From a virus, in IMG/VR virus record IMGVR_UViG_3300046002_005924, positions 1 through 37,321 of that record: 37,321 bases of DNA; one strand, written 5' to 3'. This document shows, piece after piece, positions 21,101-35,099 of the stretch (the stretch's first letter is position 1; each line of letters begins with the position of its first letter). The translations under genes were made by a program, and so were the position numbers. The notes below the pieces were generated by a model. That model ran no database searches. It had not been told where the DNA came from and saw only the letters and a list, made by a program, of their open reading frames with translations.

Positions 21101-24100
21101 GAGAAAGAGCTCGCCAAGATGGGAGTGACTATCGACGAGGTATTAAACGGCGAAGCTTTCCTTTCACTGAGTCAGAACCGGATCATCCGGAACATCACCG
21201 ACAAGATGGACAACGCGAGCCGCCTGGCCGTGAAGCTCATGCAGCAAGGTAACGGTTTCGACGCGATCCGACGCAAAACAGGCCTTCCGGATGCCAAGAT
21301 CGAAAAGATCCGGGCAGACCTTTACAAAAAGCTCGAAGAGAAGATCCGCGCCAAGGTTGAGGCGGGCATGACCCTGGAGGACATGAAAGACCAGATGAAG
21401 GGAGCGCTTGAGTCAGCAGCCCTAAGTGGACTTACTCCGGAGCAGGTCCAAGCCGAGATTGATCGTATCATTTCAGTTGGATTCGGTATTCCACAATCGC
21501 TTCAGAAGAAGTCAGGGATCCCGACCGCCAAGAAAGTGCCGAAGAAGATCGAAGACGATGAGGATTCACTGGAGGCCGGAGCCAACCGGATCGCGCAACG
21601 CTGGATCGATCGCCTTGCAATCAGCCAGTCAGACACCCTCGCTTGGAAGACAGCAGGCAAAGAGGACGAGCTCAACAAGTTGATTAGAGCCCACCTGGCC
21701 AAGCCCGTGCCGAATTTCGCCCGTATCGCTCAATCGCTGGGCGCGACGGCCGAACAGGCGCGAATCCTTGACGCGGAAGCCGCCACCGAGCGCGGCCGCA
21801 AAGCAGCGATCCGCGAATGGAAGAAGCAAAACCCTACCAAGCGCAAACCAAAGACCCTGGAACCCAAAAAGGCCTATGAGGTTGATTGGAACCGCCCAGA
21901 GTTCAGCGAAGGGTTGGAGGATTACGCTTTTACCACCACCGAGCGCACCGACCTCATGGAACGGGTTGTTGAGCTCCGCTTGCTTACCGGTATCACCGGA
22001 ACCGTGGAATCCCTCACAGGCAAGGATCGGGTCAAAGGCGATAAGCTCATCGAAGAAATGAACGTGATCTTGGCCAAATACAAGACCGACGCCCTGGAGA
22101 TGGCACAAGGCAAGATGAAGGCCGCCAACTACCGTTTCGACATCAACGACCGCCGCCACGTCGCAATCATCGCCCGCACCATCGCCGCCATTAACGCGAG
22201 CGCCATCGAAAAGGTTCAGGAATACTACTATTCGTCGATTCTTTCCGGCCTCCAGACGATGATCGTCAACGCCACTGGCATCGTCAACAGCACCTACCAG
22301 GCCGTTGTAGATCGAGGATTCGAGACAATGCTTAACTCAGTGATCGGCAACAAGGACAACGCAAGCCTTGGGGAATACCAATACCTAATGAAAGCACTTC
22401 GTCCAGGTTGGGCGCGCGCCTGGTCAAACGCTATTTCGACCTGGAATACCGAGATTCCATTCTTCGAAGAAGACATCTTGAACCGTCCACCGGATTTCCA
22501 ACGGATTGCAGAAGCAGGATCCAGCTATCGACCTGGCAGCATTGCCGGAGTGAAAGGCAGGATTATTCGCACCCCGTCGCGCATCCTGATGGCAACTGAC
22601 GACTTCCTCAACACCCTCCGGGCCTCGGCCGAGGTTGGCGCTATGGCTTTCCGGATGGCCAAGAAAAAAGGAATGACACCGGGCACCGAAGAGTTTGCGC
22701 GCTTCCTGCAACTGGAAGTAAATACCCCCGGAAGCATTTCCTGGCAAATGGCAGCCGATCGAGCCCTGAAAGGATCTTTCAACGCTCCGCTTCCCGGCCA
22801 ACCATCCACCGTGCAGCAATCGAAGAAAAAGAGCGAAAACGTGGTTCCAGTGAGAACCGCAATGGATTTCGTAGGTTTCAGCCTTGGAAAAATCCAGAAA
22901 GCGCTTACTCCGGTTGAGCTTGAAAATAGCACAACGGCGACACTGAAAACGCTAACTCGGATGCTCTTCATCCCGTTCATCCGTGTTCCGTTTAACATCA
23001 TGCAGCAAGGCATCGAGCGCACCGTCAATCCGCTCAGTATTCTCGATATGTCGATTCTGATCGGTTCCAATCTCCGCGTAAAAAACGGCAAGTTCACTCT
23101 TAATGCCGACGGAGGCAAAGAGCGCCTGATCGAATACGCCTCCAAACAAATGCAAGGTGTTGTGCTCCTGGCCGTGCTGGCAGCTCTCGGAGAGGGAGAC
23201 GACGACGACTTGGAGAAAACCATCCTTATCACCGGATCCCGGCCTTACAAGGACACAAAAAAAGGTGAGCGCGAGCTTGGCTACCGCATGGGCTTAGGTC
23301 CCTACACGATCTCCATCAAGATGCCTGGCGGAAAACGGCTTTCGGTTAGTTACGGCCGTATCGAGCCATTCGCCACAATGATGGGAGGCACGGTTGACAC
23401 CCTCAAAGCGGTAAAACTTCGCACTTCTGGCAAGATTGGCACCGGGGAAATGGTTGGCAAGGCACTTTCCGGCCTCACTTCCCAGATCAACGAAAAAACT
23501 TCGCTGCGCGGAGCCGCCGATATGCTGGAGATTCTCAGCGGTGAAGGCGCTATCGATAAGTTTGCGGCCGATCGCCTTTCGGTGATCATGCCAAACTTTG
23601 TGAAGCAAGCTCTCCGCGAATCCGATCCGCTTTTCCGCGAAAGACCGACCGAGTTCAAGGATATGCTGATTGCTGCAACCTTCCCATCCGGAGAAATCAC
23701 CGGGCTTCCCGCAAAAGTAAATCTTTACGGCCAGGATCAGGAAAAGCCAGGTAAGACCGCTTTAGGCCGGATTTTTGATCCTACCGACACCACCGTTTAT
23801 GGCGCGTCAGAAAAAACCGACAAGATGCTCTACAACTGGATTCGCCAGAATCCAAACGCAGACCTAGTGGCACCATCTAGCGCTGGAAAAACTTACACCG
23901 ATCCTATCACAAAAGAAAAATCAGTGACAATGAGCGCCGATCAATACTCCAAATTTGTAAAAGTGGCTGGAGATAGAATTAAATCACAAGTAAAAAGAAC
24001 GCCTTTCAACATCGACAACCCAACCGAAATGGATATTAAACGCTTCAGAGAAATTGTTTCTGATTCTCGCGAAATAGCCAAACGTGTTCTTGTGATGCAG

Positions 24101-24124
24101 GAAGCCTGGAGAAACCTCAAATAA
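6158..24124 (+). CDS. Giant polyvalent protein: nuclease, methyltransferase and helicase fusion
   Basis: One uninterrupted frame of 5,988 residues (about 18 kb) between terL and portal. Order: charged coiled coil (about 50-530); Gly/Ala-rich hydrophobic stretch (536-811); degenerate zincin-like patch with EEVRH (1270-1274); ParB/DdrB-like domain with DGHH (1666-1669); Ser/Gly/Asn linker (1925-2055); N6-adenine methyltransferase-like domain with motif I EPSMGIG (2179-2185) and NWPF (2244-2247); SNF2-type helicase with Walker A K2871, DEAH 3048-3051 and motif VI near 3441-3450; coiled coil and small domains; a domain with LPGGENYRE (about 4285), EEIQSD (4433-4438) and GMKGFYD (about 4650); long helical region; C-terminal domain from about 5350 with PFIRVPFNI (about 5606) and GEITGLPAKV (about 5844). 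This matches phage polyvalent proteins, which are delivered with the DNA and counter host defence; P1 DarB is a much shorter relative. Substrate and delivery are inferred. Confidence 0.93.
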   Translation: MEDFLDEEQEENPSMFTQKPSSAMRRGMGETAVTDNVSPQSGFAAKTAPPVWRMFVDNVAFQKSNAQAIASERQALSRSDAAVRESQRLAEKNDPVKLGFERELDSTQNEISRISLTRQDPNFKRLDKKEREMFEAEYGMKETSAQRKKELDAVLGREKQLDEEDQHLYGLKVKANELKIGGPGYWQQTYAQQQKDIADQGNEAASNAQGRAKALETADNSAAQEETALMQKMQQGVRGTELTETQAKLKELKQTREAFAEQKAAPDQEVEAVRGQAQQSLEGERRQREAQIRESINIKNLDRLTGVERGGLEATKDTVTVLGKAVSDLNTLDVPSEGERMKKKASVQYLEEQLNGMTARLGGRENVRADLQARIANYDKALKENPNSTWSETRLDNVMLLKMLERQDEKFAEAGITDPKDRERIVKDAALENYWTAQDTDNVRGLSTGEVVFNPARIFGQRDRIEADIKAKAGSEADAAEAIARMEAVRVNVVAKIAEDLRKSDGSFKTHESAMKKAGVTDEVKIVDSYAATMRDRNEIIKFGDAVITGVKEGGAGIYKTAVGGTAGAVRLVGADELAGSMGAHAQEVGKYIAASDSAFDTRGNTGYLSVSKDLSGTVTQMAPMFVGGAYAKGLKGITQAIVAGTSVYGWAGAQGYESKLSDAIEIEKEKFGGRDLTEKEIASTLGRADVQLSAFANAAQTMILAKVLGGGVERAALGKAAQSMSLRDFLTKGGRRALQDSTLRAELKKMGKTIFADAKDEFVEEGLNQFLDKAISAVGLGQDFKLGDVLEESIHAGLMGAVVGGGLPQLRRGEQASAEHDERKGVNTRLIAQDPGSPKAQQDEIDKAKAIAEKPSDLDDVAKHVAITREINAKEEAGKQSFIEAQEKYTQAQATGDPVAIAQAEQVLGKATAEAAAPTQTKGMLKITNGKGLETLTDAEVKSLGITREGKPVSAKELAAAGLTAPLVSNNTADGSLVITDAGSAIMGSVSPAAKTQVTMDETQYRAAAIAKAQAAAAGTAPGAAAGTTGSTGSTGTAPGSRTAPEEAPFSPKGIIKRTNAELDQKETELKAILRQNVTDPDGQEVAKLAQLSIDAIRAEKDRRAADPNFVDPAAATPGIAPTDRVFRITGTNGTVIEVTARNEADAQNQAVSDPSWQGGEKVDSVLDVTPETAEINLGAEVQPGANAPTNTGAPTSTDRPEVRIKKALAKAKKMLGDGLKITNDPNKKTAAHEDGTIVINIDQLKAAAAKRNMSEEETSVWISKSIDEEVRHAAQHRAAQAIWKSKGSPGDYVTWRNEHYGKIWQNEFVASGKDQMVIDIYGAKLARYEPWEKAFEGLRIIQQKTATGSPTEIAKFWANLRQETVDHLRAALKALKELVASGLSPELQVEIDAITAQLKEYDKANKPAKAAPAPKSAPQADASRWTFKEIADDLYNLGAGEISSLSDFSPKGPRGTTTNEMPSRQDLEGLFGKPFTEEEWIDLQNDYVGGRNFAESQAAEESAPTEPQEPKQPTQVTFVRNGETITGTFRIQSEKNGKIIVEVNGKNVLVDPSEIVEQPKPVSAKPQETSSKSPETPEWENFPEEFQSLGIPRAEMPQIKAEDRSAMVQFLKARGINYEADVMMRPSQLSPTQAEYSREKVEKAKSYEGGNRAILVSANGRVIDGHHQWLAALETDPDTPIKVIILEAPVMEILETVKQMPSVETAEGASAPAPAPAPAPIADFSQAEYAKRKRALNKAIKAKDWPTVVAKATADLEYFEKTVFPDDWSMWERAKEDAEQQISPRNYVEPILKPYVPASEAAPQAKPAPAPAAKPALSEGESALKNMFTDLVDGLETAELTDEFYQQPIPVAKMGQLIGAAQILISEGVTTPEGLAASLDRISPKLRVYSKAVWGGFVMANPSLQSDVKWLDVYAEIDAAKLDNQQQLEDSNSDETNQSNLGSEDQETGEQLEPGSKGSVDSKPGSDLDSPGDQKRSPNNGKASGGGKNTGSVGGRSPRPGNRSDSSASGPGEGSGSGPESSNAGTGASNTGNGTGVAGNQQPAYSGRPGYRLTDPEKIIGAKGPKDRFARNQKALETFDRVFSEGREPTPEELDAMAAYIGWGSFGQELFQGSWDRPNPKDEWTKESEWLREHLGQAGWESIRDSIINAHYTDPPHVKALWDIVQHLGFKGGRTLEPSMGIGNFFGLMPDVLRSKSSLTGIELDSVVGGMAKMLYPDANIRIMGYEKSATADNFYDLIIGNWPFHKEGPSDTRYNHLKLSLHDYFFVKALDQVRPGGLVVGITSSGTMDKKGQVARRQMAKRAKLVGAFRFPSGAFKGYAGTSVVTDVIILQKRTEQLSEAGNEEWIESERIGEKDKQFNANVYWRDNPTHILGEMKYGHGTTFGRAGMTVERPDNYETLLGSITDKLPAGIYTEGQQRPDRKEFFNRENGEPQNSVVYEDGSTANPKGFYIVRGEQLQPLSEVFKWEVKSEAETKKRSDQLSALLDLRKQVKELLTSQREDYPDTNSRRSEALATFNAFVKKHGSIKDSTMIKAFEKANDPMALTLLNLERKENGKTVPRDILLKDIMRRAVVDVRGNIQDAYAIQRNESISLDIARIAEISESTEQEVVDRLLDLNQIYKTPAGTWETGEEYLGGNVRRKLREAIDAKEQGFDMDRNIAALENIQPADVAYFEIEVQMGASWISKEDYLGYVSHLLGADPEMAEKNFTLTKASSGWNFKVNNDGLGRGTNAKEKYGVAQLPFAKIFQAAMNNTQVKVWNPKDDDGRVTLNDEATKIANGKVDTIREELAEWLWADPARTGRLSNDYNEVMNSEVTPKRNGDHLRLEGLALKMGNSEFDFRKHQKDAVWRFIMDGKGVGAHEVGTGKTFTMAGLAVEGRRLGKFRKTLIFAHNANSQAVYEEFQMAYPNGKFLYVDNLSPENRDSALRQIALDEWDAVIVPHSLIERFTLSEKTLMQIADKQIVALENEIAQELEDIGYNQELDLDDMKSVGMALKYVKDSSTAKELVKQRIAIRKRIADKAAKAQAEGAILFEDLGIDNIIVDEAHIFKKINLATRKVIKGLNKVESGIGWQMGAITDYVKGQNGGKGVYLFTGTPLTNNLNEAYNMMRFVMDEEMSDSGIDNFDDWFNSFAAAVSDVELTTGGTHEPVTRLLSFVNVPELARMAGRYFDVVLAKDMPEFKDRESTEGMTENPVGRPFKAVKTVISDMSPEQLAHKEQIRQQYVEYQAMDGKGKMLAMKMGRPTPITMEGQGTASALDYRLVDPTAPDYAGSKINMMLGNAMTHYNEHPESTQMIFMERGLNDYTDNDEIIRDEFGMPTYDDEGKARRRKVRRPKFNLARDIVEKLMAQGVAPEEIAILGNMSLDPIALRPNDPLRKVLKISAKLTKADIASLANQGKVRFMIGGTETMGTGVNAQRNLRAMHHLDAPWTPGALEQRNGRGWRQGNRWNTVNEYRYFAEGSHDGRRWQVLLNKVRFIYRFTQMLLNTEGQNNLRVLAGDGADMNEGGSSVADFEQSFSAAAGDPRLLLRAKLAADVNKLERKRDTHFRSIEKARESIRDLKKDEKYEKDQLEFFEKVIDVIKGTFTKDFEFQFLGKTYTERKKAEEAIANQPIPTSKDDGKILGKYGDNITLRLKWDSGSNQPIQWRIEIALPNGARHEMTLGAQSLGSLEGSMRGLMRNVSNRQERFGDFAKSIASLEEMLGKEFTRQPELDSKKKALLQILTELSQSPFPAPSWLRNGAPAGSLVYVDGEARDVEAHRWDKTGYWILLESENGGLVPVDYRKVMDEAGNRLFEDHPFEAPPDSKELTEEEIRGVLGGEFFLASPDDTSASGDGWFISGLFRDVGKWRIYNSDGDILGEGESAGEAYKAYLAETTETKPEEKEVEESQYDLAGFIQDARQGSKGSPQRIKLRRQLEGLEKALTRFDEQFEGQLLTPRQEMIKDQIREAEEELEELKRRPGLDYKEYDKLHAVQSKKLEGLDKKLRSGSGRENLVNKIKEVRKKLTDMEEEAMSQTQSTLIPYGFTKREDGGLETADLYDLPIEANPVELAKHLGKIYFTVLISDPETYVLRPNYFETKKDAEEARANDQIVIEQRREEAFQMIKAINEELFGKRLENADLSDEMPEFYSQLSRTITEKMPKTATPMQVLQIAKAGAKADEIKWSGLIPWLQGKEKVSKDDVLNWLATEGSVKFKEVTMGRSENQARIAELTAQIEARGYELQEEYGEYIIFNVEEDEDITYDDLPEDLQPLFDEIQELTGDEQELGVNDATKYAQYQLPGGENYREVVLAMPGGSQKSQKQLLEDAGFTFEQYGNNWYVQDPEGGVVSEGATLERAIEMTEYAPIEQGSIDYRSTHFPDVPNYVAHMRLNERSLPGKGYTVRNTKSGRTGPVFATLGEAEADMKQYPATYSLEIKEVNRDEKGLFIEEIQSDRHQAGRKKGYKGDFPENVLKAAIAGGMTEAAARADIDHLLEEPLSTAARPTGDQWKRLSDAVGSDVDLNEVFHDKREEGIADAPFRTSWPLQMFKRALRDAVRSGKDWIGWTTGETQNDRYNLSNHIKSIDWVTSKNSINRDVFIEPIGQNGFTFFVKPDGTVINNSGESAAGIVPDGSRLDEVIGKDVADLILSRESGELSGEGLNIGGKGMKGFYDTMLPKEIGKYVKQWGAKVEKAKLSEASEGMYILDAEDIGADVDSKQEVIIRHRVTLEGIADFESIRAAEDWLEKNDPTVRDFWKITITPELRKAVGAGQALYNAPLEDDLGEMGTLEEREEIRKQQAAFKEEGKVVGRPDLANPGMSEETRDLFDEEDEIRKLYANRETWAQWNKAGEKLANEDEDKVVRTWLAAALQADKAADAGGVEFDAQQLNPELVVAIRIIMERRAKQAGGDPAKLAKVAILRNAYRSARANIARVMAAGVDTLKKPEQRHREQLVNLITTLPEKDMRNIEERFGSGTKEQQAAKEQEIEKQTVDQIKRIEKELAKMGVTIDEVLNGEAFLSLSQNRIIRNITDKMDNASRLAVKLMQQGNGFDAIRRKTGLPDAKIEKIRADLYKKLEEKIRAKVEAGMTLEDMKDQMKGALESAALSGLTPEQVQAEIDRIISVGFGIPQSLQKKSGIPTAKKVPKKIEDDEDSLEAGANRIAQRWIDRLAISQSDTLAWKTAGKEDELNKLIRAHLAKPVPNFARIAQSLGATAEQARILDAEAATERGRKAAIREWKKQNPTKRKPKTLEPKKAYEVDWNRPEFSEGLEDYAFTTTERTDLMERVVELRLLTGITGTVESLTGKDRVKGDKLIEEMNVILAKYKTDALEMAQGKMKAANYRFDINDRRHVAIIARTIAAINASAIEKVQEYYYSSILSGLQTMIVNATGIVNSTYQAVVDRGFETMLNSVIGNKDNASLGEYQYLMKALRPGWARAWSNAISTWNTEIPFFEEDILNRPPDFQRIAEAGSSYRPGSIAGVKGRIIRTPSRILMATDDFLNTLRASAEVGAMAFRMAKKKGMTPGTEEFARFLQLEVNTPGSISWQMAADRALKGSFNAPLPGQPSTVQQSKKKSENVVPVRTAMDFVGFSLGKIQKALTPVELENSTTATLKTLTRMLFIPFIRVPFNIMQQGIERTVNPLSILDMSILIGSNLRVKNGKFTLNADGGKERLIEYASKQMQGVVLLAVLAALGEGDDDDLEKTILITGSRPYKDTKKGERELGYRMGLGPYTISIKMPGGKRLSVSYGRIEPFATMMGGTVDTLKAVKLRTSGKIGTGEMVGKALSGLTSQINEKTSLRGAADMLEILSGEGAIDKFAADRLSVIMPNFVKQALRESDPLFRERPTEFKDMLIAATFPSGEITGLPAKVNLYGQDQEKPGKTALGRIFDPTDTTVYGASEKTDKMLYNWIRQNPNADLVAPSSAGKTYTDPITKEKSVTMSADQYSKFVKVAGDRIKSQVKRTPFNIDNPTEMDIKRFREIVSDSREIAKRVLVMQEAWRNLK
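7764..8590 (+). other. Hydrophobic Gly/Ala segment of the giant protein
   Basis: Residues about 536-811 contain several Gly/Ala-rich hydrophobic stretches (for example QMAPMFVGGAYAKGLKGI and AGLMGAVVGGG) and a helix with EFVEEGLNQFL. Stretches of this kind, ending in an E-G-x-E-E-like helix, are common in phage ejection proteins and polyvalent proteins. They could help the protein pass through or insert into the host membrane. The function is inference. Confidence 0.5.
9829..10000 (+). other. Degenerate zincin-like patch in the giant protein
   Basis: Residues about 1225-1281 have the layout seen in polyvalent metallopeptidase domains: a strand (GTIVINIDQL), then a helix with an E-x-x-H signature. 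The motif reads EEVRH at 1270-1274 with a further His at 1278, so the first His of a classical HExxH is Glu. If this is a zincin it may be inactive or bind metal differently. A helical non-enzyme domain is equally possible. Confidence 0.3.
10930..11280 (+). other. ParB/DdrB-like nuclease-fold domain in the giant protein
   Basis: Residues about 1591-1708. IPRAEMPQI opens the domain, SQLSPTQAEYS lies in the middle, and RVIDGHHQWLAAL (D1666, H1668, H1669) is the hallmark of the ParB/sulfiredoxin fold as found in DdrB-like polyvalent proteins. The GHHQW segment would form the nucleotide- or phosphate-binding turn. The match is to my memory of the family. Confidence 0.75.
12318..13170 (+). other. 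N6-adenine methyltransferase-like domain in the giant protein
   Basis: Residues about 2054-2338. AHYTDPPHVKALW is the lead-in (motif X), EPSMGIGNFFG (from 2179) is the SAM loop, and DLIIGNWPF (2240-2247) is the catalytic motif IV. LRPGG-like VRPGGLVVGITSSGTMDK follows, as in DarB-type and conjugative-element methylase-helicase proteins. The usual NPPF reads NWPF; relatives in conjugative elements often have NVPF, so loss of the first Pro need not mean inactivity. Confidence 0.8.
14645..16640 (+). other. SNF2/SF2 helicase domain in the giant protein
   Basis: Residues about 2830-3495. The Q-motif-like FRKHQKDAVW leads to Walker A AHEVGTGKTFTM (K2871). Walker B is IIVDEAHIF (DEAH 3048-3051), motif III is FTGTPLTNN (about 3096-3104), motif V GGTETMGTGVN and motif VI QRNGRGWRQGN (Q3441 to about 3451). 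All motifs needed for ATP-driven DNA translocation are present. A charged insert between motifs Ia and II is typical of the DarB-type helicases. Confidence 0.9.
18990..20450 (+). other. EEIQSD / GMKGFYD domain in the giant protein
   Basis: Residues about 4278-4765. Signposts in order are YQLPGGENYREVVL (4282 on), NYVAHMRLNER, EEIQSDRHQ (4433-4441), APFRTSWPLQMFKRALRDAV, IGWTTGETQNDRY, GGKGMKGFYD (4646-4656) and ITPELRKAVGAGQALY. This series recurs in many phage polyvalent proteins, where EEIQSDWHQ is usual; here Trp is replaced by Arg. The biochemical role is not known to me. Confidence 0.7.
22210..24124 (+). other. C-terminal polyvalent-associated domain in the giant protein
   Basis: Residues about 5350-5988. 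SSILSGLQTMIVNATGIVNS, TPSRILMATDDFLN, FIPFIRVPFNI, a hydrophobic helix (VVLLAVLAALGEG), LGPYTISIKM, SYGRIEPFATMMGG and GEITGLPAKVNLYG follow one another as in the C-terminal ends of other large phage polyvalent proteins. Its several hydrophobic helices suit membrane or portal-channel contact, but this is inference. Confidence 0.65.
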
Positions 24125-24136
24125 GAAAATACAGTA

Positions 24137-26332
24137 ATGGACGACCAACTCGACAGAATCTCAGCACAGGCACAGCATATTCCACTGGAGGACGATGGGG
24201 AATCACCGTTGATGCCATTCCCTACCAATTACGTCTTAAACCGCACCCAGGAGGCGGAATTGATCAATCATGCTTTTGATCGACTTCAGCAGCTTGAAAG
24301 CGAGCTTGGCCGGGATATAGCCGGAGCCGGAGACTGGTGGATGAACGATACGGCCGCAACTGGAGAATATCGCGATCCTGAAGGCGGAGTTCCAACCGAG
24401 CGCACCTTCTTAGGAAAGCGCAGGCTCTACGATTTGGTTTCACAAAACAACGTGGAGCACCGTGCCTACATCCTGGGAGGCATTTTCGCCGAATCCAACC
24501 TTGTTGTGCCGATTGCCCGCAAAATTGCCCGTCAAATGGTTGCCCGTGCCGTCAATTACTTCTTTGGCACCGATCCTTGGTTTAGTATTTACCCGGTAGG
24601 AGCCGCCGACCGGATCAGGGCCGACAAAGCAGACAGATACACCCGTTGGAAAATGGATCAAGCCAAGCTCAAAAGATCACAAGAGCAGGCTATTGAGCGC
24701 GCTTTCACGCTTGGGGAAGCGGTAGTGAAAACCACCTGGGCAAACCGGGAGCAATACTACAAAACCACAGCTACCGTGCTTGTGGACGAGGCCGGGGCCG
24801 ACATTCTTGGCCTTGATGGTGATTTCATTCTCGAAACCGACTTGTGGATCCAGCAAGTGATTCAAGATCCAATGACCGGAGAGCAAATGATGGGAAATGT
24901 AATGGTATTGAAGCGAGACGGACAGACTCCGCAGCCGCAAAACATGATCTGGCAAGAAAAACCGATTACCCGCCGCATCACCCAATACAAAGGACCAGAA
25001 GCAAAAACGATCCATTATCTCGACTTCCTTTGCCCACTCGACGCGGAAGATGTGCAGACCGCCGATTGCGTTGTGCACCTCTACGACCAGGCCGTAATGG
25101 ATTTGGCGGACCAATGGAGAAAACAAACCGAACAATCTGCAACAGCGATGCAGCACTATGGCGACGTGCAAAAAGCGATCAACCTGATCAGCGAGCTTGC
25201 TCATTCCACCCCGGAGCCCGAAAGCGGCCAGAACACGGCCGACAGCAACATGGGAAGCGGCAGCGCTTTCAACCGTGGCGACCGCACCGCACCGCTGGCA
25301 AAGATCGCAGAATTTCACCTCCGCTACGACGCCGACGGCGACGGCCTGCTTGAAGACATCATGCTGATTGTCGATCGCAAGACCCGCACCCCGATTTTCT
25401 ATGATTACGTTGCCAACGTCACTCCTGACGGTTTGCGGCCGTTTTCGGTAACACGAGTCAACGAAGTTCCCGGCCGTTGGTATGGTATCGGCACAATGGA
25501 GATGTTCGAATCCTCCCAGCAGATTGTCGATCTACTGGTCAACCGCTGGAACTTTGCCCAATCGCGCGCAGCCCGCGTGGATTTCTGGAACCCTCACAAC
25601 ACTTTGGAAGGCCGAGCCAACTCCGGCCTGGCGCTGAATTGGGGAGGCACCTACACCCCGCTTCCTGGCAAGTCAGCCAAAGATTGTTTGGAGTCGGTTT
25701 ATCTGGAAAACAACACGAAGGACAATATCAAGGAGCTCACCGAGTTCTTCCTTCAGCTCATGGTAACGGAATCCGGAGTAAACAACGCCAACGACGGCCA
25801 GGCCGTGGGTATGGATTCACAGAAACTTGCCACTGGCATCAGGAACATCGAGAAAAGCGGCCAGGAGCTTTTCAGCTTGTATCTCGGCCACTTGGAACCA
25901 GGCGTCTCGGGCACCCTTCAAAAGATGGTTCGACTTCTTTTCGCCAACTTGGACAAGATGGAGGTTTATCGCTACTTCGAAGAAGGCGAAGGCGGAGAAG
26001 GTGCCGAGGAAATGCTTCAAATTGATCCGGGCGAGATCGCCGACATGGAAATCGATACCAGGATCCTACTCACTCGCTACCGTGGCGAGCAGATCCTCGA
26101 AAGCTCGGTAAGAGCCGTGGAGTTGGTGGAGCGTTTTTATGCGATGGCACCGGAGATCCAAGAGCGCACCCAAAAGCTCTTCCAGGATATGCTCAAAGCC
26201 TTGCAAGTTTCCGCCGTGGATGAAATCATCCAGCCGACCGTTATCCAGGCACCGCCAGCAGGTATGCCAAACGCGACGCAAGTAGCACAGGCCGCCAAGC
26301 CTAAGCCCCGGCAAGGAGCTCCTAATTTATGA
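24137..26332 (+). CDS. Portal-like protein
   Basis: A 731-residue protein, long for the family but within range of P22- and T7-like portals. It would form the dodecameric ring through which DNA enters and leaves. The segment VPIARKIARQMVARAVNYFF followed by GTDPWFSI is the helix-turn seen near the start of the clip/wing region of portals. The second half contains MFESSQQIVDLLVNRWNFA, the long-helix region of this family. The last ~60 residues (PPAGMPNATQVAQ) are loose, as usual in portals. It starts 12 nt after the giant gene and its TGA overlaps the next gene by ATGA. Position after terL and before scaffold and capsid is standard if the inserted giant gene is ignored. Confidence 0.85.
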   Translation: MDDQLDRISAQAQHIPLEDDGESPLMPFPTNYVLNRTQEAELINHAFDRLQQLESELGRDIAGAGDWWMNDTAATGEYRDPEGGVPTERTFLGKRRLYDLVSQNNVEHRAYILGGIFAESNLVVPIARKIARQMVARAVNYFFGTDPWFSIYPVGAADRIRADKADRYTRWKMDQAKLKRSQEQAIERAFTLGEAVVKTTWANREQYYKTTATVLVDEAGADILGLDGDFILETDLWIQQVIQDPMTGEQMMGNVMVLKRDGQTPQPQNMIWQEKPITRRITQYKGPEAKTIHYLDFLCPLDAEDVQTADCVVHLYDQAVMDLADQWRKQTEQSATAMQHYGDVQKAINLISELAHSTPEPESGQNTADSNMGSGSAFNRGDRTAPLAKIAEFHLRYDADGDGLLEDIMLIVDRKTRTPIFYDYVANVTPDGLRPFSVTRVNEVPGRWYGIGTMEMFESSQQIVDLLVNRWNFAQSRAARVDFWNPHNTLEGRANSGLALNWGGTYTPLPGKSAKDCLESVYLENNTKDNIKELTEFFLQLMVTESGVNNANDGQAVGMDSQKLATGIRNIEKSGQELFSLYLGHLEPGVSGTLQKMVRLLFANLDKMEVYRYFEEGEGGEGAEEMLQIDPGEIADMEIDTRILLTRYRGEQILESSVRAVELVERFYAMAPEIQERTQKLFQDMLKALQVSAVDEIIQPTVIQAPPAGMPNATQVAQAAKPKPRQGAPNL

Positions 26333-26652
26333 ACACAATACGACCCGCACAACAAAAACAATCCGACGAGGTATTAAAAAGAGCCGCAGAAGCGGTAAGC
26401 AGTATTGATCAGCTCATGCGCTCACCTGAATTTCAGGAGTTTATGCAATACTTTCAAGAACGAGCTGATTTACTGGCCGACGAAATACTTCACAATGACG
26501 CATTGATTGAAAAAGAGCGCGAAGCCAAAAGAAATCACCGTTTAGGCATTTTGGAAGTTCTCAGATGGCCAGTTGATCATCGTAACGCGCAATGCAACGT
26601 ATTAGCCGCATCAGGAAGATTTCCTGGCGACGGAACAGAATACGGGTTGTAA
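26329..26652 (+). CDS. Small helical protein after the portal, unknown
   Basis: A 107-residue protein that starts inside the portal stop (ATGA), so it is translationally coupled. A GGAG lies 11 nt before the start, one of few Shine-Dalgarno-like sites here. It is helical and charged (MRSPEFQEFMQYFQERADLL, then EKEREAKRNHRLGILEVLRW). Many podovirus-like genomes have a small helical gene in this place, but I cannot name a family. It ends 7 nt from the end of a convergent gene. Confidence 0.7.
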   Translation: MNTIRPAQQKQSDEVLKRAAEAVSSIDQLMRSPEFQEFMQYFQERADLLADEILHNDALIEKEREAKRNHRLGILEVLRWPVDHRNAQCNVLAASGRFPGDGTEYGL

Positions 26653-26659
26653 GCCGATT

Positions 26660-26980
26660 TTACTCGTCAGCCACATCAAGCGGAGCGCCAGATTCAGTAA
26701 CAACTTGAAACGTGTAACTGCGGGTAAATAGTCCCGGCGAAGTTTCCACGTTGGTTCCGCGACTAATTGTGATCCGAGAGGGGCGATCGGCAATTGCAAG
26801 GCCGTTATACCAAGCGTAAAATTGCTCCAAGAAAGCGTAAATGATTTTCCGGGAGTCTCCGGTTGCTGCGTCAGCTTCAGCGGCCGTCAATTCAGGAAGA
26901 TCCGCGATAGGAAGCGTAATATCGGTTCCATCTTCAGTCCAGCCTGGGAATAGTGCGGTAGGGATTGGGTCAAATGCCAT
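26660..26980 (-). CDS. Small protein of the minus-strand cassette, unknown
   Basis: A 106-residue protein, third in a minus-strand run. It reads as MAFDPIPTALFPGWTEDG, then ADLPELTAAEADAATGDSRK, and a strand-rich end with ITISRGTN and SYTFQVV. From memory, short proteins with LPELT-(A/E)-EAD and ADRP-x-x-(I/M)-TI occur in other phages as hypotheticals, which argues that it is a real gene. It starts 80 nt after the preceding cassette gene and converges on the gene following the portal with a 7-nt gap. No function known. Confidence 0.7.
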   Translation of the reverse strand: MAFDPIPTALFPGWTEDGTDITLPIADLPELTAAEADAATGDSRKIIYAFLEQFYAWYNGLAIADRPSRITISRGTNVETSPGLFTRSYTFQVVTESGAPLDVADE

Positions 26981-27060
26981 AATTTTTTATTGGTTGTTAC
27001 GACCGCAAATTACTGAGTAAGTCGTAATTTGGCGAGAAAAATCATAAACGGTTAGTCAAA
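26981..27060 (-). promoter_or_regulatory. Gap with overlapping inverted repeats before the last minus-strand gene
   Basis: Two inverted repeats overlap: TTACGAC (26997-27003) with GTCGTAA (27021-27027), and AAATTAC (27007-27013) with GTAATTT (27024-27030). They cannot form at once, so they could be alternative RNA folds or an operator. On the minus strand, TTTGACTAACCGTTTATGAT (27060 downward) resembles the TTGAC-N6-TTAA element, 80 nt before the gene start. Confidence 0.35.
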
Positions 27061-27954
27061 CTAGAGCTTTGCGCCGTTGTCAGTATCCCAAACAGGCACG
27101 GCTGGATTGTCCTTGGCATATGGCCACCAGACCTGCGGTTCATGGATGAAATCGGTGCCTGTCTCATTAATCGATCCAAGCGCATCGAAGTAGACCGGAC
27201 AAGTTGCATCTCCCGTTGCGAGTCTCAAGATGTAGTTTGAAATCAAGACTGCCCGAGAGCTAAAATCACCGGCTCCGCCCTGAGAGTTATAAATGTTGGT
27301 GCTGCCTCCAAACGGAACGATGCCATAATCGAACCAATACATCTCGATCTCTAGAAAGAACTGATTAGTTGGAGCATATAGACCATCTGCCGGATCTGCT
27401 TTGACGACTGCCACACGCTTTCCTCGGTAGACTTTTGCATAGACTCCAAGTCCCGTGTCGCCCCACCATTCAGGATCTCCTCCTTGGATGCTGTTTGGGT
27501 CATCTTGTTCATAGGAAAACGCATCGACGTGATCTGGGTCATTCCACGCATCCTTCCACATCCCGTTCTCGTTGTCTGCAATATCGCTGTAATAGTTGCC
27601 GATACCTGCATCGTATGTCGCGCCGTTGTATGGGTATGCGTCAAGGATTGTGTAACCTCTTTTTTGATACGTCACTCCATCAATCTCTAGCGTCCTGTTT
27701 GTTGGAGCACTTGTAGGTGCTGAGATTGAAGCCGATGGCGTTCCAAAGACATCAATCTCCCATGATGCGCTGCCTCCTGTGAACCAAGCATCTTTGACCC
27801 TGTAGAAAATTTCAGCTATTTGATCTAGCGTTACCTCCATTGGAAATGCTGTCCCATCGCCACAAGCCACAAATCCTTCGTCGGGGGTTCCGTTAGTAAC
27901 TTGACCATCAACCCATTCAAATCTTTTGTTTCGAGTAAATACTCCGTTAGCCAT
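27061..27954 (-). CDS. Aromatic-rich, strand-rich protein of the minus-strand cassette
   Basis: A 297-residue protein, second in the minus-strand run, overlapping the preceding gene by one base (TAATG). It is rich in Trp, Tyr, Asp and Gly, with a helix LDQIAEIFYRVKDAWFTGGS and then mainly strands (GVYAKVYRGKRVAVVKAD, FFLEIEMYWFDYG). No signal peptide or membrane segment is seen. The composition suits a virion surface, fibre or decoration protein, but no family is recognised, so the role is open. Confidence 0.7.
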   Translation of the reverse strand: MANGVFTRNKRFEWVDGQVTNGTPDEGFVACGDGTAFPMEVTLDQIAEIFYRVKDAWFTGGSASWEIDVFGTPSASISAPTSAPTNRTLEIDGVTYQKRGYTILDAYPYNGATYDAGIGNYYSDIADNENGMWKDAWNDPDHVDAFSYEQDDPNSIQGGDPEWWGDTGLGVYAKVYRGKRVAVVKADPADGLYAPTNQFFLEIEMYWFDYGIVPFGGSTNIYNSQGGAGDFSSRAVLISNYILRLATGDATCPVYFDALGSINETGTDFIHEPQVWWPYAKDNPAVPVWDTDNGAKL

Positions 27955-28628
27955 TATGGTGGTAGGTCGTAATTGTTTCTGTGGCTAATTTCATATACCT
28001 GCAAAGCAAAATCACCGTTGATTACAACCAATTCTTCAAACAATCGAATTTCCTCAAACTGATATTGGATTATTGTTGGCGGCTCTCCCGGTGTCTCTTC
28101 AGTGGCTGGAGTTCCTTCAATAACTTTGGCTAAAACTCTGTATTGATAGTTCTGACCGGATTCTAAAACGTCTTCAGACCAAATTACTTCTGCGGCTGTT
28201 CCTTCTCTTGCGCTGGCGCTTCTGGTTATTTTCAGCAAGACGTATCCAGTCTCTCCCGTTACGGTTCCATCCGCGACCAAAATATCATCACCTTGCCCAC
28301 AAAAATAAACCGTATCACCTATGAAGCTCCATTCATTTGGGGGGTCTTCTATTTCTGGGTCTGGAGCGTTGTAAGTTACTTTCCAAGGATGTTTTTCATA
28401 ATACTCTCCCGACCCAGCTTGTCTGATTGCCATAATTAGCAATCTTTTTGTAATCCCATCGATCTTGGCATCGATTAGGTGCGGGGCAAAGCTTCCAATA
28501 AACATTTCAAGATGAGCCATACGGGCGAACATCATATCCTCCGGCAAACCGCCTCCTGACCCGCCCATTGGCCCAGCCAGGCCGCCTCCCATTGGAAATA
28601 CTGATTGCGGCTCGCTCATAAAAAACAT
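27954..28628 (-). CDS. Gly/Met-rich N-terminus, strand-rich protein, unknown
   Basis: A 224-residue protein, first of the minus-strand run. The N-terminus (FPMGGGLAGPMGGSGGG) is flexible, followed by a helix (RMAHLEMFIGSFAPHLIDAK) and then strands with an immunoglobulin-like feel (NEWSFIGDTVYFCGQGDD, QNYQYRVLAKV). The order flexible tail, helix, strands is common in small virion fibres or decoration proteins; this is inference. Starts are possible at 28628 or at a second ATG 9 nt in (28620). It is transcribed away from the scaffold-like gene. Confidence 0.65.
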   Translation of the reverse strand: MFFMSEPQSVFPMGGGLAGPMGGSGGGLPEDMMFARMAHLEMFIGSFAPHLIDAKIDGITKRLLIMAIRQAGSGEYYEKHPWKVTYNAPDPEIEDPPNEWSFIGDTVYFCGQGDDILVADGTVTGETGYVLLKITRSASAREGTAAEVIWSEDVLESGQNYQYRVLAKVIEGTPATEETPGEPPTIIQYQFEEIRLFEELVVINGDFALQVYEISHRNNYDLPP

Positions 28629-28683
28629 TTACCCAAAATCTTTCGGATTGACAAGATATTAAGAAATGCGGAGTTTCCTTGAT
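28629..28683. promoter_or_regulatory. Divergent start region with TTGACA...TTAAG element, copy 2
   Basis: The 55-nt gap separates the minus-strand cassette from the scaffold-like gene. On the plus strand ATTGACAAGATATTAAG (28647-28663) begins exactly 37 nt before ATG 28684 and the leader ends TTCCTTGAT, repeating the layout at 4182. Rightward transcription of the head genes could start here. No clear minus-strand promoter is seen, though the gap must serve that side too or rely on a distant promoter. Confidence 0.5.
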
Positions 28684-29748
28684 ATGCAAAACGACCATCA
28701 GGCGGAAGCCGATTCGCAGCAGGAGCAAGAGACGGTTGAAGATCCATTGGATACTTCAAATGACCTCGATCAAGAGGCGGCAGAACTTAACAAATACACA
28801 GACTTTATTGATGCACTTGACCAGGAAGAGCAGGATTACTCCGCTTCTACCGACGTAAGTGAAGAAAGCGAATCTGAGCAGGAGTTAAGTGGAGAAGAAG
28901 AATCAACAGAGCAAGACCCCGAAGAGGAATCAGAAGAAGGAGCAGAGGCGGAAGCCCGCGACGGATCTGAAGACGAAGAAGAGGACGACGGCGCAACAAT
29001 CAAATCCGATCGATTTCGTATTCGTGCGAAAGACGAGGTAGAGATTGAAGCACTATCCCTCCGCAAGCGCCACCCTGATTGGAGCCTTGAGGAATGTCTC
29101 ACAAAAGCAAAATCAATCCTTGGAATCAATGACCAAGCGCAAAACGAGCAGTGGCAGGATGGAAACACCGCCCAGCAACGAGGTGTGGCCGACATCGACG
29201 CCGAGATTGCATCGCTCCGACAACAGCACCGGGAAGCCACTGTATCGCTTGAATTTGAACAAGCAGCAGACCTTTTCGACCGTTTAGAGCAGTTGCGCGA
29301 CGAGCGCAGCAATATGCAAGTGATTGAAATGCAGCGTGAAACAGCCCGTGAGCAGCAGCTACAAGAATCATTTGAGCGTCAGTTCCAGGACAACGAAGCA
29401 AAAGCAGTTCGGTTTTACCCGGATGCAGCCAAAGCTGAAAGTCCCATGACAAAACGCATCATTGAGCTCAACGAGCAAATGCGTCAACTCGACGATCCAC
29501 TTTATTATTCTCCCGAAAAACCTTTTATCCTGGCGAAACAAGCAGCAAGAGATTTGGGCATACCTATGCGCAATCCTTCTGCCGAACCCGCTAGAAATAA
29601 ATCCGTGCAATCGAAAGGCCGTCTGATTCAACCCGCGAGCGGAAACGCCCGCACTACCCCTAATAGCTCTACCACTACAAAGCTGGAAGACACATTGGGT
29701 CGGATTGATTCTTTGGAGGCCTACGAAGACCTCGCTGCATCGCTCTGA
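28684..29748 (+). CDS. Acidic protein, probable capsid scaffold
   Basis: A 354-residue protein just before the capsid-like gene. The first ~120 residues are very rich in Glu, Asp, Ser and Gln (for example EESTEQDPEEESEEGAEAEA). The middle is a long helix or coiled coil (DAEIASLRQQHREATVSLEF and on), and the end is loose (ARTTPNSSTTTK). Acidic N-terminus, coiled coil and position before the capsid gene fit scaffolding proteins. An in-frame ATG at 28666 would add six residues, but ATG 28684 is chosen because the element spacing matches the gene at 4219. Confidence 0.65.
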   Translation: MQNDHQAEADSQQEQETVEDPLDTSNDLDQEAAELNKYTDFIDALDQEEQDYSASTDVSEESESEQELSGEEESTEQDPEEESEEGAEAEARDGSEDEEEDDGATIKSDRFRIRAKDEVEIEALSLRKRHPDWSLEECLTKAKSILGINDQAQNEQWQDGNTAQQRGVADIDAEIASLRQQHREATVSLEFEQAADLFDRLEQLRDERSNMQVIEMQRETAREQQLQESFERQFQDNEAKAVRFYPDAAKAESPMTKRIIELNEQMRQLDDPLYYSPEKPFILAKQAARDLGIPMRNPSAEPARNKSVQSKGRLIQPASGNARTTPNSSTTTKLEDTLGRIDSLEAYEDLAASL

Positions 29749-29854
29749 TTGGTTGTGACACCTGGCAGGTCGTGGAAACGGCTTATTTAGGGGCTCTCAT
29801 AAGGAAGTAATTCCTTTTTCTAAGCCTTAAAATAACCACAAACCACCTAAAACC
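29749..29854 (+). promoter_or_regulatory. Structured leader before the capsid-like gene
   Basis: The 106-nt gap has ACCTGGCAGGT (29760-29770, palindrome with one central base), an outer stem GGCTTA (29780-29785) with TAAGCC (29821-29826), and inside it AAGGAA-GTAA-TTCCTT (29801-29816) followed by Ts. The inner hairpin plus T tract could act as a weak terminator or as an mRNA-stabilising structure for the highly expressed capsid gene. The last 25 nt are A/C-rich without a Shine-Dalgarno. Confidence 0.4.
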
Positions 29855-31321
29855 ATGCCTTCATTTGACTTCACATCGCCGAATACCGGCACCTCACTTG
29901 CTGCAATGTCTCCCGCGAGCGTTCGCAAGCTCTGGCATCAGGGCGTCCTGATTGCCGAACAAACCGAAGACTTCTTCCAACAAATGGAAAGTTCGACGGA
30001 TCGCGCCCCGATCTGGGCAAAAACCGACACCGCTAAAGGACGCGGCCAATCGATGGTATTCACTCCTATGAGTGGATTCTACAACAAAGGTAAATTCGGA
30101 GAAGCTCTCTTCGAAGGCCCTTCTGACTTCGAGACGGTTCGTGTTGGTGACTTCACGCTTACCGTTGACTTTATTCGTAACGCTGTTCGTAACAGCGAGC
30201 GCATGGAAGAAGTTATGGGTATGCGTAACGAGATCAAAACCAAGTTCAACATTGAGCTTGGTAAATGGCTCGGCCGCACCAAGTCCGAACAGCTTTTCGG
30301 TATGTTCCAGCTCAAACTGAATAGCGAAAACGTGTTGTTTGCCAACGGCAAGACTCTCAATACCCTTTCCAGTGCTGATGCGCTTGTATGGGACGAGATT
30401 GTTACCGCTGGCCAAGCCATGAAGCCCCTGGGAGGCCTTCCTGCGAACGTCGCAGGCAAGCAATCCGGTCAGCCGATCTGGTCGCAATCCGTTATCGCCA
30501 CCGAAGCTGCACTTCTGTCTCTTAAACTTGATCCGGATTACAAAACGGTTCTTGCTTCTGGTGACATTCGCGGCAAAGGAAACACCATCTTCAAAGGTGG
30601 CTATCCTTCCATCGATGGCCACACGGTTGTTCCTTACAACCCAATTGACCACGACGGAGTTGGCCCACAAGGCTCGTTCCTTAACCCGAAAGCTTTCCTC
30701 GGTGTTGCAATCACCGCAGGCACCACGGCAATCGACGTTAAAGGTGGCGGCACCGCAGCCGAAGCCGACAGCTCTGATTTCTTCCGCTATTTCGCGGGTA
30801 GTCCTTATGAGTTTGTCGATACAGGCATATTCAGCCCAGCGTCCGAAACTCGTTATTTCCTCATTTGCAACACCACTGGTGCCGATGCAGGTAAATTCGG
30901 TATGTATTCCTACACTACTGGCAACGACGGTGAGAAAATCACTATCGTTAATCGCCTTGGCTCCGCCGCTTCCGGCGCTCGCGTCACTACCCTTGGTGAT
31001 GTCGTTTGGAACACTGGAGTATGGAGTGGAAAACACACCGACGCGCACCCAGAAGGATCCCTCATCATTCCTTGTAACTCCAAAGGAGTTCCGATTGGTG
31101 ATACCCTTGTGCTCGGCAAGTGTGCAGCGCTTCGCGGTTACGGCAAACACCGTGGCCATCGTAGCCAGCAAGTGCATGAAGGCGGATTCCTTATGGATCG
31201 CTTCATCACCAGCGTATTTGGTCAAACCATCCGTGAAGACCGTAAAGGCCGTCACCCTGCGGTTGTCCGTGTTCGCCACGCTATCAGCTATCCGGGAATT
31301 TCGTTCCCAACCGTGGCTTAA
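29855..31321 (+). CDS. Major capsid protein candidate
   Basis: A 488-residue protein of the size and position expected for the main shell protein, right after the scaffold-like gene and right before a strong terminator. An early segment, GRGQSMVFTPMSGFYNKGKF followed by GEALFEGP, looks like the N-arm and E-loop part of an HK97-type fold as in N4-like or DUF4043-type capsids. A long helix follows (ERMEEVMGMRNEIKTKFNIE), then strand-rich A-domain sequence. Codon use looks strongly biased, which leaves a long open frame on the other strand (29894-31279); this is taken as a shadow. The exact fold subclass is inferred. Confidence 0.75.
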   Translation: MPSFDFTSPNTGTSLAAMSPASVRKLWHQGVLIAEQTEDFFQQMESSTDRAPIWAKTDTAKGRGQSMVFTPMSGFYNKGKFGEALFEGPSDFETVRVGDFTLTVDFIRNAVRNSERMEEVMGMRNEIKTKFNIELGKWLGRTKSEQLFGMFQLKLNSENVLFANGKTLNTLSSADALVWDEIVTAGQAMKPLGGLPANVAGKQSGQPIWSQSVIATEAALLSLKLDPDYKTVLASGDIRGKGNTIFKGGYPSIDGHTVVPYNPIDHDGVGPQGSFLNPKAFLGVAITAGTTAIDVKGGGTAAEADSSDFFRYFAGSPYEFVDTGIFSPASETRYFLICNTTGADAGKFGMYSYTTGNDGEKITIVNRLGSAASGARVTTLGDVVWNTGVWSGKHTDAHPEGSLIIPCNSKGVPIGDTLVLGKCAALRGYGKHRGHRSQQVHEGGFLMDRFITSVFGQTIREDRKGRHPAVVRVRHAISYPGISFPTVA

Positions 31322-31395: not shown

Positions 31396-31941
31396 ATGAA
31401 ATTTATCATTTATATCTGCAATCGACTTCGCCAGGGCCAATTCCCGCGTATGTCAGATTTCCCCTACAACGAGCAGCTTGGGAAATACATCTACCAGGGC
31501 AAGATCATGGACGTTCACGAGTTCAACGCGGCTTGCGAAACGATCTTTGACCCCAACTATCGCACGAGCGGTTACAATTTCCGGCCCTTGGCCATGATCG
31601 AAGCAAACGCTTCCCCAAACACGGGAGAGCCCGACGCCTACGAGCGTAAACAACTCGGTAAAGCGCTTGCCAAAAAAACAGTGGAAAAAAGCACCTCCGA
31701 AGATTCGGAGCCCACCTCCGAAGAAATCAAATCTACCTCCGAAGATTCCAATTTAGTCACAAAAGATTTTAATTACGGTTTTTTCCAAGACGGTGACGAC
31801 ATCTACCACGAAGGCCGGATCGTCGGCCGCCTTTTTGAAGGCAAGTTGAAGATGGTCAAAGGCGAGGGAGAGCTCCGCGAAAAAGCGTTGGCCTTTATCG
31901 CTTCCGCTGGAGAGTCACCCGCAGCAGAACCCTTAGTTTAA
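31396..31941 (+). CDS. Unknown protein after the capsid terminator
   Basis: A 181-residue protein. The first half is compact (MSDFPYNEQLGKYIYQGKIM, NAACETIFDPNY). The middle carries a small acidic repeat, STSEDSEPTSEEIKSTSEDS, likely disordered. The end looks ordered again (DGDDIYHEGRIVGRLFEGKL). A second possible start is ATG 31450. Position between capsid and adaptor genes suggests a virion or assembly role, but no family is recognised. Confidence 0.65.
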   Translation: MKFIIYICNRLRQGQFPRMSDFPYNEQLGKYIYQGKIMDVHEFNAACETIFDPNYRTSGYNFRPLAMIEANASPNTGEPDAYERKQLGKALAKKTVEKSTSEDSEPTSEEIKSTSEDSNLVTKDFNYGFFQDGDDIYHEGRIVGRLFEGKLKMVKGEGELREKALAFIASAGESPAAEPLV

Positions 31942-34025: not shown

Positions 34026-34607
34026 ATGGAAAACGTCGTCCCAATCGCAAATTTGCCCGCTTTCATTGAAGAAACGGTTTTGCAAGTGCGCACAGGCCTT
34101 GCACAAGCACGGATAGCCGGAACACTTGTTGAAATGCCGGAAGTCATTCAATTTTCGGTTATTGTCGTCAAATCATGGCAACCTGAATTGCTTGCGTATG
34201 ATTCTGTTGATATTGGGACAAACACAGGTGGCCAAAGTGGTTCAACTACAACTATCACCAATGGCACAAGTGTTGATACAGGTGTTGAAATTGGTATTGA
34301 TACAGATTCTAGCGTTTCAAATCAAAATTCTACGGACACCGACACCACGACGGAAACCGGAACAAATACGGACACTGATACCACGACGGAAACCGGAACT
34401 ACCACTGATACTGATACCACGACGGAAACCGGAACTACCACTGATACTGACACCACTACTGAAACTGGAAATTCCACGGACACCGACACTACAACGGAAA
34501 CCGGAACAAATACCGATACCGACAGTGGAACAACAAATGATACATCAGTTGGAGGAACTACTACCGTATATAACGGTAGCGGGCAAAGTGAATCAACCCA
34601 ATCTTAA
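34026..34607 (+). CDS. Acidic 12-residue-repeat protein
   Basis: A 193-residue protein. Residues 1-55 are ordered (AFIEETVLQVRTGLAQARIA, then VIQFSVIVVK), resembling small helix-strand domains such as the trypsin-co-occurring type, by memory only. From about 103 to 162 there are five copies of a 12-residue unit T-D-T-D-T-T-T-E-T-G-T-x plus a partial one (nt 34332-34511). Each unit carries D at positions 2 and 4 and E at 8. The gene ends in TAA one codon before the next ATG, in the same frame. The next protein has the same repeat frame with basic residues. A fibre, linker or paired scaffold role is possible. Confidence 0.7.
   Translation: MENVVPIANLPAFIEETVLQVRTGLAQARIAGTLVEMPEVIQFSVIVVKSWQPELLAYDSVDIGTNTGGQSGSTTTITNGTSVDTGVEIGIDTDSSVSNQNSTDTDTTTETGTNTDTDTTTETGTTTDTDTTTETGTTTDTDTTTETGNSTDTDTTTETGTNTDTDSGTTNDTSVGGTTTVYNGSGQSESTQS
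34332..34511 (+). repeat. Five 36-nt tandem units, acidic
   Basis: Units begin with ACGGACACYGAYACC-like sequence and contain ACGGAAACCGGAAC; period 36 nt, five copies and a sixth partial copy after 34511. They encode the T-D-T-D-T-T-T-E-T-G-T-x unit. Copies vary mainly at third codon positions, so the protein unit is under selection or recently amplified. Confidence 0.85.
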
Positions 34608-34610
34608 ATA

Positions 34611-35099
34611 ATGCCGACTCAAAATACAGATAGCGCGAATGAATATAACAAAAGCGATATTACTTCCAGTAATCGCTTTGGTACTACGACGCGTAATGGC
34701 ACCCGTACAAGCAATTCTACCGGAACAAAAACCGGGAATCGTACAAGCAATTCTACCGGAACAAAAACCGGAACGGGAACACGCACTTCCACCGGAACAA
34801 AAACTGGAACCGGAACGCGTAACACTACTGGGTCAAAAACTGGAACTGGAACGCGCAATACTACCGCGACCAAAACCGGGAATGGAACCGTTGCTAATAC
34901 TAGCAGCAAAACGGGAACATCTAATCGAGATTCTACTAAAACAGGCACAAACAACAGCACATCAGTGACGACCCGCGACCTGGCTGAAACCAGTGGAAGC
35001 GAAAAAACTAGCACAGCAAGAGCGAACATTGCCATGCAGATTCAATTCGCGGTTAAGATTAAAGACATTATCCCAACTTTACCGGGATCAACCTGCTAA
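34611..35099 (+). CDS. Basic 12-residue-repeat protein
   Basis: A 162-residue protein directly after the acidic repeat protein, in the same frame and separated by one stop and one codon. Residues about 31-102 repeat with a 12-residue period: K at 40, 52, 64, 76, 88 and 100, each in a (T/S)-K-T-G context, with R six or eight residues before. The unit T-R-N-T-T-G-S-K-T-G-T-G aligns with T-D-T-D-T-T-T-E-T-G-T-N of the neighbour at T1, T5, T9, G10 and T11, with D2 to R and E8 to K. The C-terminus has AMQIQFAVKIKD, which recalls VIQFSVIVVK of the neighbour. No family is known; binding to the acidic partner is inference. Confidence 0.7.
   Translation: MPTQNTDSANEYNKSDITSSNRFGTTTRNGTRTSNSTGTKTGNRTSNSTGTKTGTGTRTSTGTKTGTGTRNTTGSKTGTGTRNTTATKTGNGTVANTSSKTGTSNRDSTKTGTNNSTSVTTRDLAETSGSEKTSTARANIAMQIQFAVKIKDIIPTLPGSTC
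34701..34916 (+). repeat. Six 36-nt tandem units, basic
   Basis: Period 36 nt; each unit contains ACAAAAACCGG-like sequence encoding TKTG. The six lysine anchors are exactly 12 codons apart. The first two units also share the segment CGTACAAGCAATTCTACCGG, indicating recent duplication. Confidence 0.8.

Follow-up and report, generated by a model that had tools for sequence, protein, structure and literature searches.

A reversed gene cassette beside the scaffold gene of a podovirus-like phage: a probable host-recognition module with an exchangeable tip

Introduction

Why should three genes in the structural region of a phage genome face against all the others? The DNA considered here is an IMG/VR virus record of 37,321 bases ('the window', meaning the whole stretch analysed), for which a list of 20 genes was used. 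Seventeen of them are rightward; the only leftward ones, P1, P2 and P3, lie on the minus strand between a portal/small-gene pair and the scaffold gene (Table 1). The original prediction had described this arrangement correctly, including its compactness: in ORF coordinates, there is a 1-nt overlap (TAATG) between P1 and P2, and 80 nt separate P2 from P3. It proposed an acquired module interrupting the head operon, a lysogeny-expressed moron or a separately timed decoration set. We consider it probable that the cassette is instead a host-recognition module made late, with the capsid genes, in which P1 would be an adaptor, P2 an exchangeable tip and P3 optional.

Table 1. Position of the cassette genes, their boundaries and the elements between P1 and the scaffold gene
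Feature	Position in window	Strand	Description
Small gene after portal	26329..26652	+	Convergent with P3, 7-nt gap; cassette boundary
P3	26660..26980	-	106 aa ORF; small accessory domain, optional
P2	27061..27954	-	297 aa ORF; probable exchangeable host-binding tip
P1	27954..28628	-	224 aa ORF; probable virion-anchored adaptor with a short helical part at the N terminus and a beta domain at the C terminus
Possible P1 -10 box	28626..28631	-	TAAATG, spacer 17; p 0.15 against shuffles, weak alone
Overlapping -35 boxes	28648..28654		TTGACA (+, 28648-28653) for scaffold; TTGTCA (-, 28654-28649) for P1
Scaffold gene, probable corrected start	28684..29748	+	Divergent partner of P1; cassette boundary

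Layout of the cassette

Recurrence in other contigs and a constant P1-P2 spacing (-4 to +4 nt in all 17 opposed loci examined) indicate that P1, P2 and P3 are real genes. P2 and P3 were found at 100% identity in contigs that are probably the same phage, and further at 85% down to about 45%; P1 recurs at about 26-40% identity, over its C-terminal part. Two starts should probably be moved, that of P1 to 28619 (codon 4), because of the spacing of its promoter-like element, and that of the scaffold gene to codon 7, because of this spacing and of the starts in relatives. The name 'scaffold' reflects position and the label given in the original prediction, and comes without a family match. Family matches exist for the portal (Pfam SU10_portal and a PHROG portal family) and for the head protein (PHROG phrog_334). 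The cassette proteins are unassigned, as originally described: credible Pfam or PHROG matches were absent for all three, and P1 and P2 had none at E values up to 1.

The locus is conserved among relatives

A portal profile search recovered at least 74 viral loci. It also found 3 genome loci, with portal identities of 62% (a Luteolibacter pohnpeiensis isolate), 49% (a MAG of the Verrucomicrobiales) and 27% (a MAG of the Chlorobiota). The isolate carries its phage genes on a 63-kb contig together with ftsK-, lgt- and tatD-like host genes (labels read by eye) and a resolvase-like serine recombinase (read from the sequence), because of which this relative is probably a prophage. It carries counterparts of P1 and P2, reversed, at the same place. 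The best reading is that the locus belongs to a podovirus-like family of Verrucomicrobiota and is conserved within it. In INPHARED, searched by tblastn, P1, P2 and P3 had no match, and the portal had two matches, both to uncultured records at 23%. The available portion of a study of prophages in Verrucomicrobia genomes (PMC6920513) does not mention this locus.

Orientation was then compared across 24 lineages, defined among the matches listed as loci with portal and scaffold on one stretch, portals of more than 97% identity being merged. Genes of the P1/P2 slot are present in 22 of the 24: 19 lineages have them opposed and 3 have them co-directional (L046, L073 and L178, each with its group), while L084 and L033 lack them, the latter keeping a 124-aa minus ORF. 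The script itself labelled 17 lineages as opposed, 5 as same and 2 as none; the figures given here are a manual recount. L023 and L071 were recounted as opposed because their 'same' label came only from added same-strand ORFs, which are glycosyltransferases in L023; the P1 gene of L053 and the 124-aa ORF of L033 had been masked by spurious ORFs in the automatic gene choice. On the portal tree (41 rows, 22 labelled), the three orientation states need 3 changes.

With opposed slot genes at the same position in 19 of the 24 lineages, an insertion that interrupts the head operon is not supported. Place and, mostly, orientation are conserved among relatives and the identity of the genes is not, so that the refuting condition set out in the original prediction gives a mixed result. 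The idea of an acquired module thus fails for the locus and holds for its content, as described below.

Exchange of P2 between near-identical and unrelated phages

Among the 20 listed pairs of loci with portals at least 98% identical, the P2 slot was at most 36% identical in 12 and 61-100% identical in 8; these values are upper bounds, because each P2-slot protein was scored by its best match among all genes of the other cassette that encode at least 100 aa. Compared slot against slot, the six pairs formed by L046 to L049 gave 26-35%, except for L047/L049 (82%). For L048 and L049, portal (100%), scaffold (99%) and MCP (99%) are practically the same, against 66% for the P1 slot and 33% for the P2 slot (in the pair comparisons, the length of the L063 scaffold is doubtful). 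A hypervariable, exchanged slot between conserved structural genes is a trait of receptor-binding modules, and near-identical phages differing mainly at the cassette constitute a natural experiment on host range.

At the DNA level, the window matches L002 at 83% (27870 to 27055), L005 at 81% (27870 to 27061) and L007 at 75% (28067 to 27060, including the last 37 codons of P1), and these matches end 0-6 nt beyond the P2 stop. For the syntenic loci L010, L037 and L064, identity over P2 is 65-67%. As the P2 DNA of the window is nearer to unrelated phages than to syntenic relatives, the cassette content is acquired and exchanged, and P2 has moved between unrelated phages, which have this module in common. 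The portal profile gave no match on 9 foreign contigs, including L002, L005 and L007, in a search run without a positive control; a separate search with a single portal protein gave a match on G001. A further contig, L127, has P1, P2 and P3 in order and co-directional, and its DNA is 90% identical to that of L064 over P2 and the C-terminal part of P1 only; it has an MCP-like gene too, and so cannot count as wholly unrelated.

The surroundings of the pair in these phages bear on where its products might sit. In L002, the P1-P2 pair lies two genes downstream of a PHROG tape-measure gene, and in L005, L007 and L012 it is preceded by long genes that look fibre-like by eye (one searched from L007 and one from L005 gave no family match). 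It could be proposed that P1 and P2 are head decoration or head-fibre proteins, placed on the capsid and varying for stability or surface sticking. The locus does adjoin the scaffold and capsid genes, with both of which it seems co-expressed, and a gene neighbouring the pair in L002 has PHROG matches, to 'head fiber' and virion families. The place after the tape-measure gene is however a tail position, and both the exchange of P2 and the best structural matches of P1 fit host contact, so that we regard decoration of the head as unlikely.

P1 as a candidate adaptor

The structural model of P1 contains a confident beta domain (residues about 81-210, pLDDT 78-94), whereas P2 is beta-rich only in a poor model (mean pLDDT 56); the 'strand-rich' character originally attributed to the cassette is thus borne out for P1 and doubtful for P2. 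When P1 was compared with VIA-align, the best 11 rows were all phage or virus proteins, from six viruses, at Z 3.7-7.5, the next row being at 2.4. Ten of these 11 are titled tail fibre, receptor-binding protein (RBP), baseplate or tropism determinant. They include the tail fibre of cyanophage A-1(L) (Z 7.5, rmsd 4.9, 95 residues aligned), the SPP1 gene 22 product (Z 5.6, rmsd 3.4, 92 aligned), lactococcal p2 (Z 4.2-4.6), the baseplate of Haloferax tailed virus 1 (Z 4.1), the RBP of phage 1358 (Z 4.0) and Mtd (Z 3.7-3.8), and are taken as a lead because all are under Z 8. With Foldseek, P1 had nothing at E <0.001 in the PDB and two matches below 0.001 in BFVD, both uncharacterised phage proteins. 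The poor P2 model gave nothing useful with VIA-align on a PDB subset or with Foldseek in BFVD. For both P1 and P2, profile searches against PDB sequences were not convincing, the best P1 match being a stretch of reovirus sigma-1 (E 0.013) over the helical part.

Co-variation of P1 with P2 and with the portal was examined on 36 pairs of loci with portal identity of at least 60%, which are not independent and in which the incomplete L072 portal makes the L072 portal values too low. The P1 C terminus correlates with P2 (Spearman 0.83) and much less with the portal (0.27); for the N terminus the values are 0.58 and 0.46. The C terminus of P1 thus follows P2. The claim has a weaker half, namely that the N terminus goes with the virion; because the N-terminal correlation with P2 is no lower than that with the portal, this half rests on pairs with near-identical portals and on the foreign phages. 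Mean identities over the 8 pairs whose portals are 95% identical or more are 76% for the P1 N terminus, 46% for the P1 C terminus and 35% for P2. Close pairs with different P2 show P1 identity dropping from N to C terminus, as in L046/L047, where successive 30-residue bins are 90, 70, 77, 57, 47 and 47% identical. The foreign L007 shows the opposite trend (53-64% in C-terminal bins, 17-37% in N-terminal bins).

Such co-variation is also what would be seen if P1 were a short fibre whose own C terminus binds the host, with P2 as its cognate assembly chaperone or cap. The two genes are adjacent and translationally coupled, their partner regions co-vary, and a study of Alteromonas phages (PMC10579305) describes such a pair as common to unrelated phages. 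Here, however, of the two slots the second varies more, and in some relatives its protein has 550-1470 aa, a large size for a chaperone, and no Pfam match was obtained for P2 and the P2-slot proteins tested (E 0.01-1, varying by search), a result that leaves room for a chaperone unlike known families. This arrangement seems quite unlikely to us. One of the long slot proteins, that of L059 (1471 aa), matches PHROG tail-fibre, baseplate-wedge and virion families, its top match being a head-closure family; nine other slot or neighbouring proteins searched with it had no such PHROG match.

Comparison with known systems

In T-even phages, the long tail fibre gp37 carries a small exchangeable tip adhesin, gp38, which sets host range. 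As with gp37-gp38, P1 and P2 are adjacent coupled genes of which the second is exchanged; unlike them, P1 and P2 match no Pfam or PHROG family, P1 falls far short of the length of gp37 and the genes occupy another position. RBPs with a beta 'shoulder'-like domain (lactococcal p2, 1358, the A-1(L) tail fibre, BPP-1 Mtd) supply the best P1 rows, but at only 3-16% identity over 90-98 residues, and P1 stops after the beta domain, the tip being a separate gene. In Alteromonas phages A5, V22 and P24, host-recognition modules are described as adjacent fibre and partner genes common to morphologically distinct phages, which the present cassette resembles (PMC10579305). Compared by description, it differs from them in that the second gene, a chaperone there, is here the most variable gene, and in that the present module is opposed to the head genes. 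The best supported view is that the cassette would work like these two-part exchangeable host-recognition modules (PMC10579305; T-even gp37-gp38), homology to a named family not being detected.

We therefore favour, as a working scheme, a host-recognition module in which the N-terminal part of P1 would dock on the virion of the podovirus-like family, its C-terminal beta domain would carry P2, and P2, the exchangeable tip, would contact the host surface. Three anonymous genes would then become a host-recognition locus for phages of Verrucomicrobiota, and a testable one, since one relative is in the genome of a cultured isolate.

Promoter-like elements and the reversed orientation

P1 and the scaffold gene have back-to-back promoter-like elements, each with a -35 box about 35 nt upstream of the ATG; the distance between the two ATGs is 64 nt in the window as well as in L105 and L043. 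Within the 60 nt that precede the scaffold start, 14 of 19 loci contain TTGAC[AG], against 0.5 expected after shuffling, at -35 to -39 if the window start is taken as codon 7 (28684). On the other strand, 10 of 16 loci have TTG[ACT][AC][AG] at -34 to -37 of a start of the opposed gene next to the scaffold, and the other six (L053, L056, L059, L070, L074 and L083) lack it. None of the 6 co-directional family loci (three lineages) and 1 of 5 foreign co-directional loci have the P1-slot element, and 5 of these 6 family loci have a 4-nt overlap with the previous gene. With four fixed hexamers, the signature is borne by three genes in each case, out of 20 in the window and 64 on the prophage contig, against a background of 0.5-1.3% per ATG, and the three correspond in position: P1, scaffold and the gene that follows terminase. 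All these element counts are exploratory, because the hexamer set was picked after inspection of the sequences; the signal is seen only when positions are measured from start codons, several candidate starts being allowed per gene. The gene after terminase (4201-4806, +), when started at codon 7, has its -35 element at 36 nt, as does its counterpart.

Weight-matrix scoring gave no locus of 19 under 0.05 towards P1 (window p 0.15) and 5 of 19 with p <=0.023 towards the scaffold (window p 0.42). Generic scans of the window yielded promoter-like and terminator-like sites in numbers expected by chance. Where the small gene and P3 converge (26652-26660), nothing resembling a terminator was found; because of this and of the 7-nt gap, their transcripts may collide or run antisense.

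As the -35 box lies about 35 nt ahead of the ATG, transcripts would start at about the ATG and be leaderless. The simplest reading is that a single promoter class serves three late units: the module would be transcribed leftward from a promoter back-to-back with that of the scaffold gene, and cassette and capsid proteins would probably be made together, late in infection. This arrangement suggests why a reversed cassette need not break the head operon. We propose more tentatively, and with less than even confidence, a symmetrical leaderless bidirectional late promoter, with a shared -35 heptamer (TTGACAA/TTGTCAA), that would couple the swappable module to the scaffold gene. Were this true, module and scaffold would compete for the one polymerase that makes both; the reversed orientation would be a regulatory design insulating an exchange hotspot from the head operon; and forward-facing lineages would use simple read-through instead. 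Of the separately timed decoration set originally proposed, the supported part is that the cassette probably encodes virion or host-contact proteins; the separate timing is disfavoured by the promoter-like signature common to P1 and scaffold.

Morons of temperate phages have opposite polarity or their own promoter within the late region. The cassette resembles them in its polarity and in its own promoter-like element, which would make it a transcription unit of its own, and it could be read as lysogeny-expressed genes that alter the host, for instance its surface, from the silent strand of the late operon; one relative is probably a prophage, and glycosyltransferases occur in the same interval of some relatives. 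Unlike a moron, however, it occupies a conserved locus, occurring in either orientation rather than as a present/absent extra, its P1 element is of the scaffold class, which favours co-expression with the capsid genes over lysogenic expression, and it encodes virion-like proteins. P1, P2 and P3 have no membrane-spanning stretch (highest 19-residue hydropathy 1.02), and in unrelated phages the genes are co-directional with tail or fibre genes. The moron originally suggested is accordingly a very improbable reading. A tropism locus that is invertible or diversified by a retroelement, suggested by the two orientations within the family, the serine recombinase of the prophage contig and the weak resemblance of P1 to Mtd, seems extremely unlikely: none of 8 inverted-repeat pairs in 24100-30000 flanks the cassette and no reverse transcriptase was matched at E 1e-3 in the 18 relatives searched (many of them fragments, controls matching in 3 of 14, window and prophage contig outside this search).

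P3, sugar genes and other observations

In the host-recognition module favoured here, P3 would be an optional structural or accessory domain. It corresponds to the N-terminal domain of proteins of 1087-1146 aa in L178-L180, which sit between portal and scaffold in L178 and L179, and it has no counterpart in the cassettes of L010 and L105. It is found in many further phage contigs, some within runs of structural-looking genes and some not, and P3 alone behaves as an optional gene. In L024 (1493-2224), the P3 domain runs into a Thr/Ala-rich tail, and the next genes are glycosyltransferase-like by eye.

Sugar genes are present in the same interval in L023 (5375-7632), L063 (11860-12951) and L047 (8835-9272), from the families Glyco_transf_34 and Methyltransf_24, Glyco_transf_9, Glycos_transf_1 and FdtA/WxcM-like cupin, as if surface proteins, or the host, were glycosylated. 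Elsewhere in the window, at 34026-35099 (+), two genes encode Thr/Asp/Glu-rich and Thr/Gly/Asn/Ser-rich repeats. In L063, L067 and L085 the reversed cassette itself contains a relative of the first, which in L063 adjoins a glycosyltransferase; this suggests glycosylated repeat proteins.

Nearly half of the window is taken up by a 5988-aa ORF (6158-24124, +), whose counterpart has 4345 aa on the prophage contig and more than 2600 aa, running off the fetched stretch, in relatives. Finally, at 31396-31941 (L011, L015), a twin contig from another metagenome shows 96% identity, with 188 versus 181 aa, the remaining genes compared being 100% identical.
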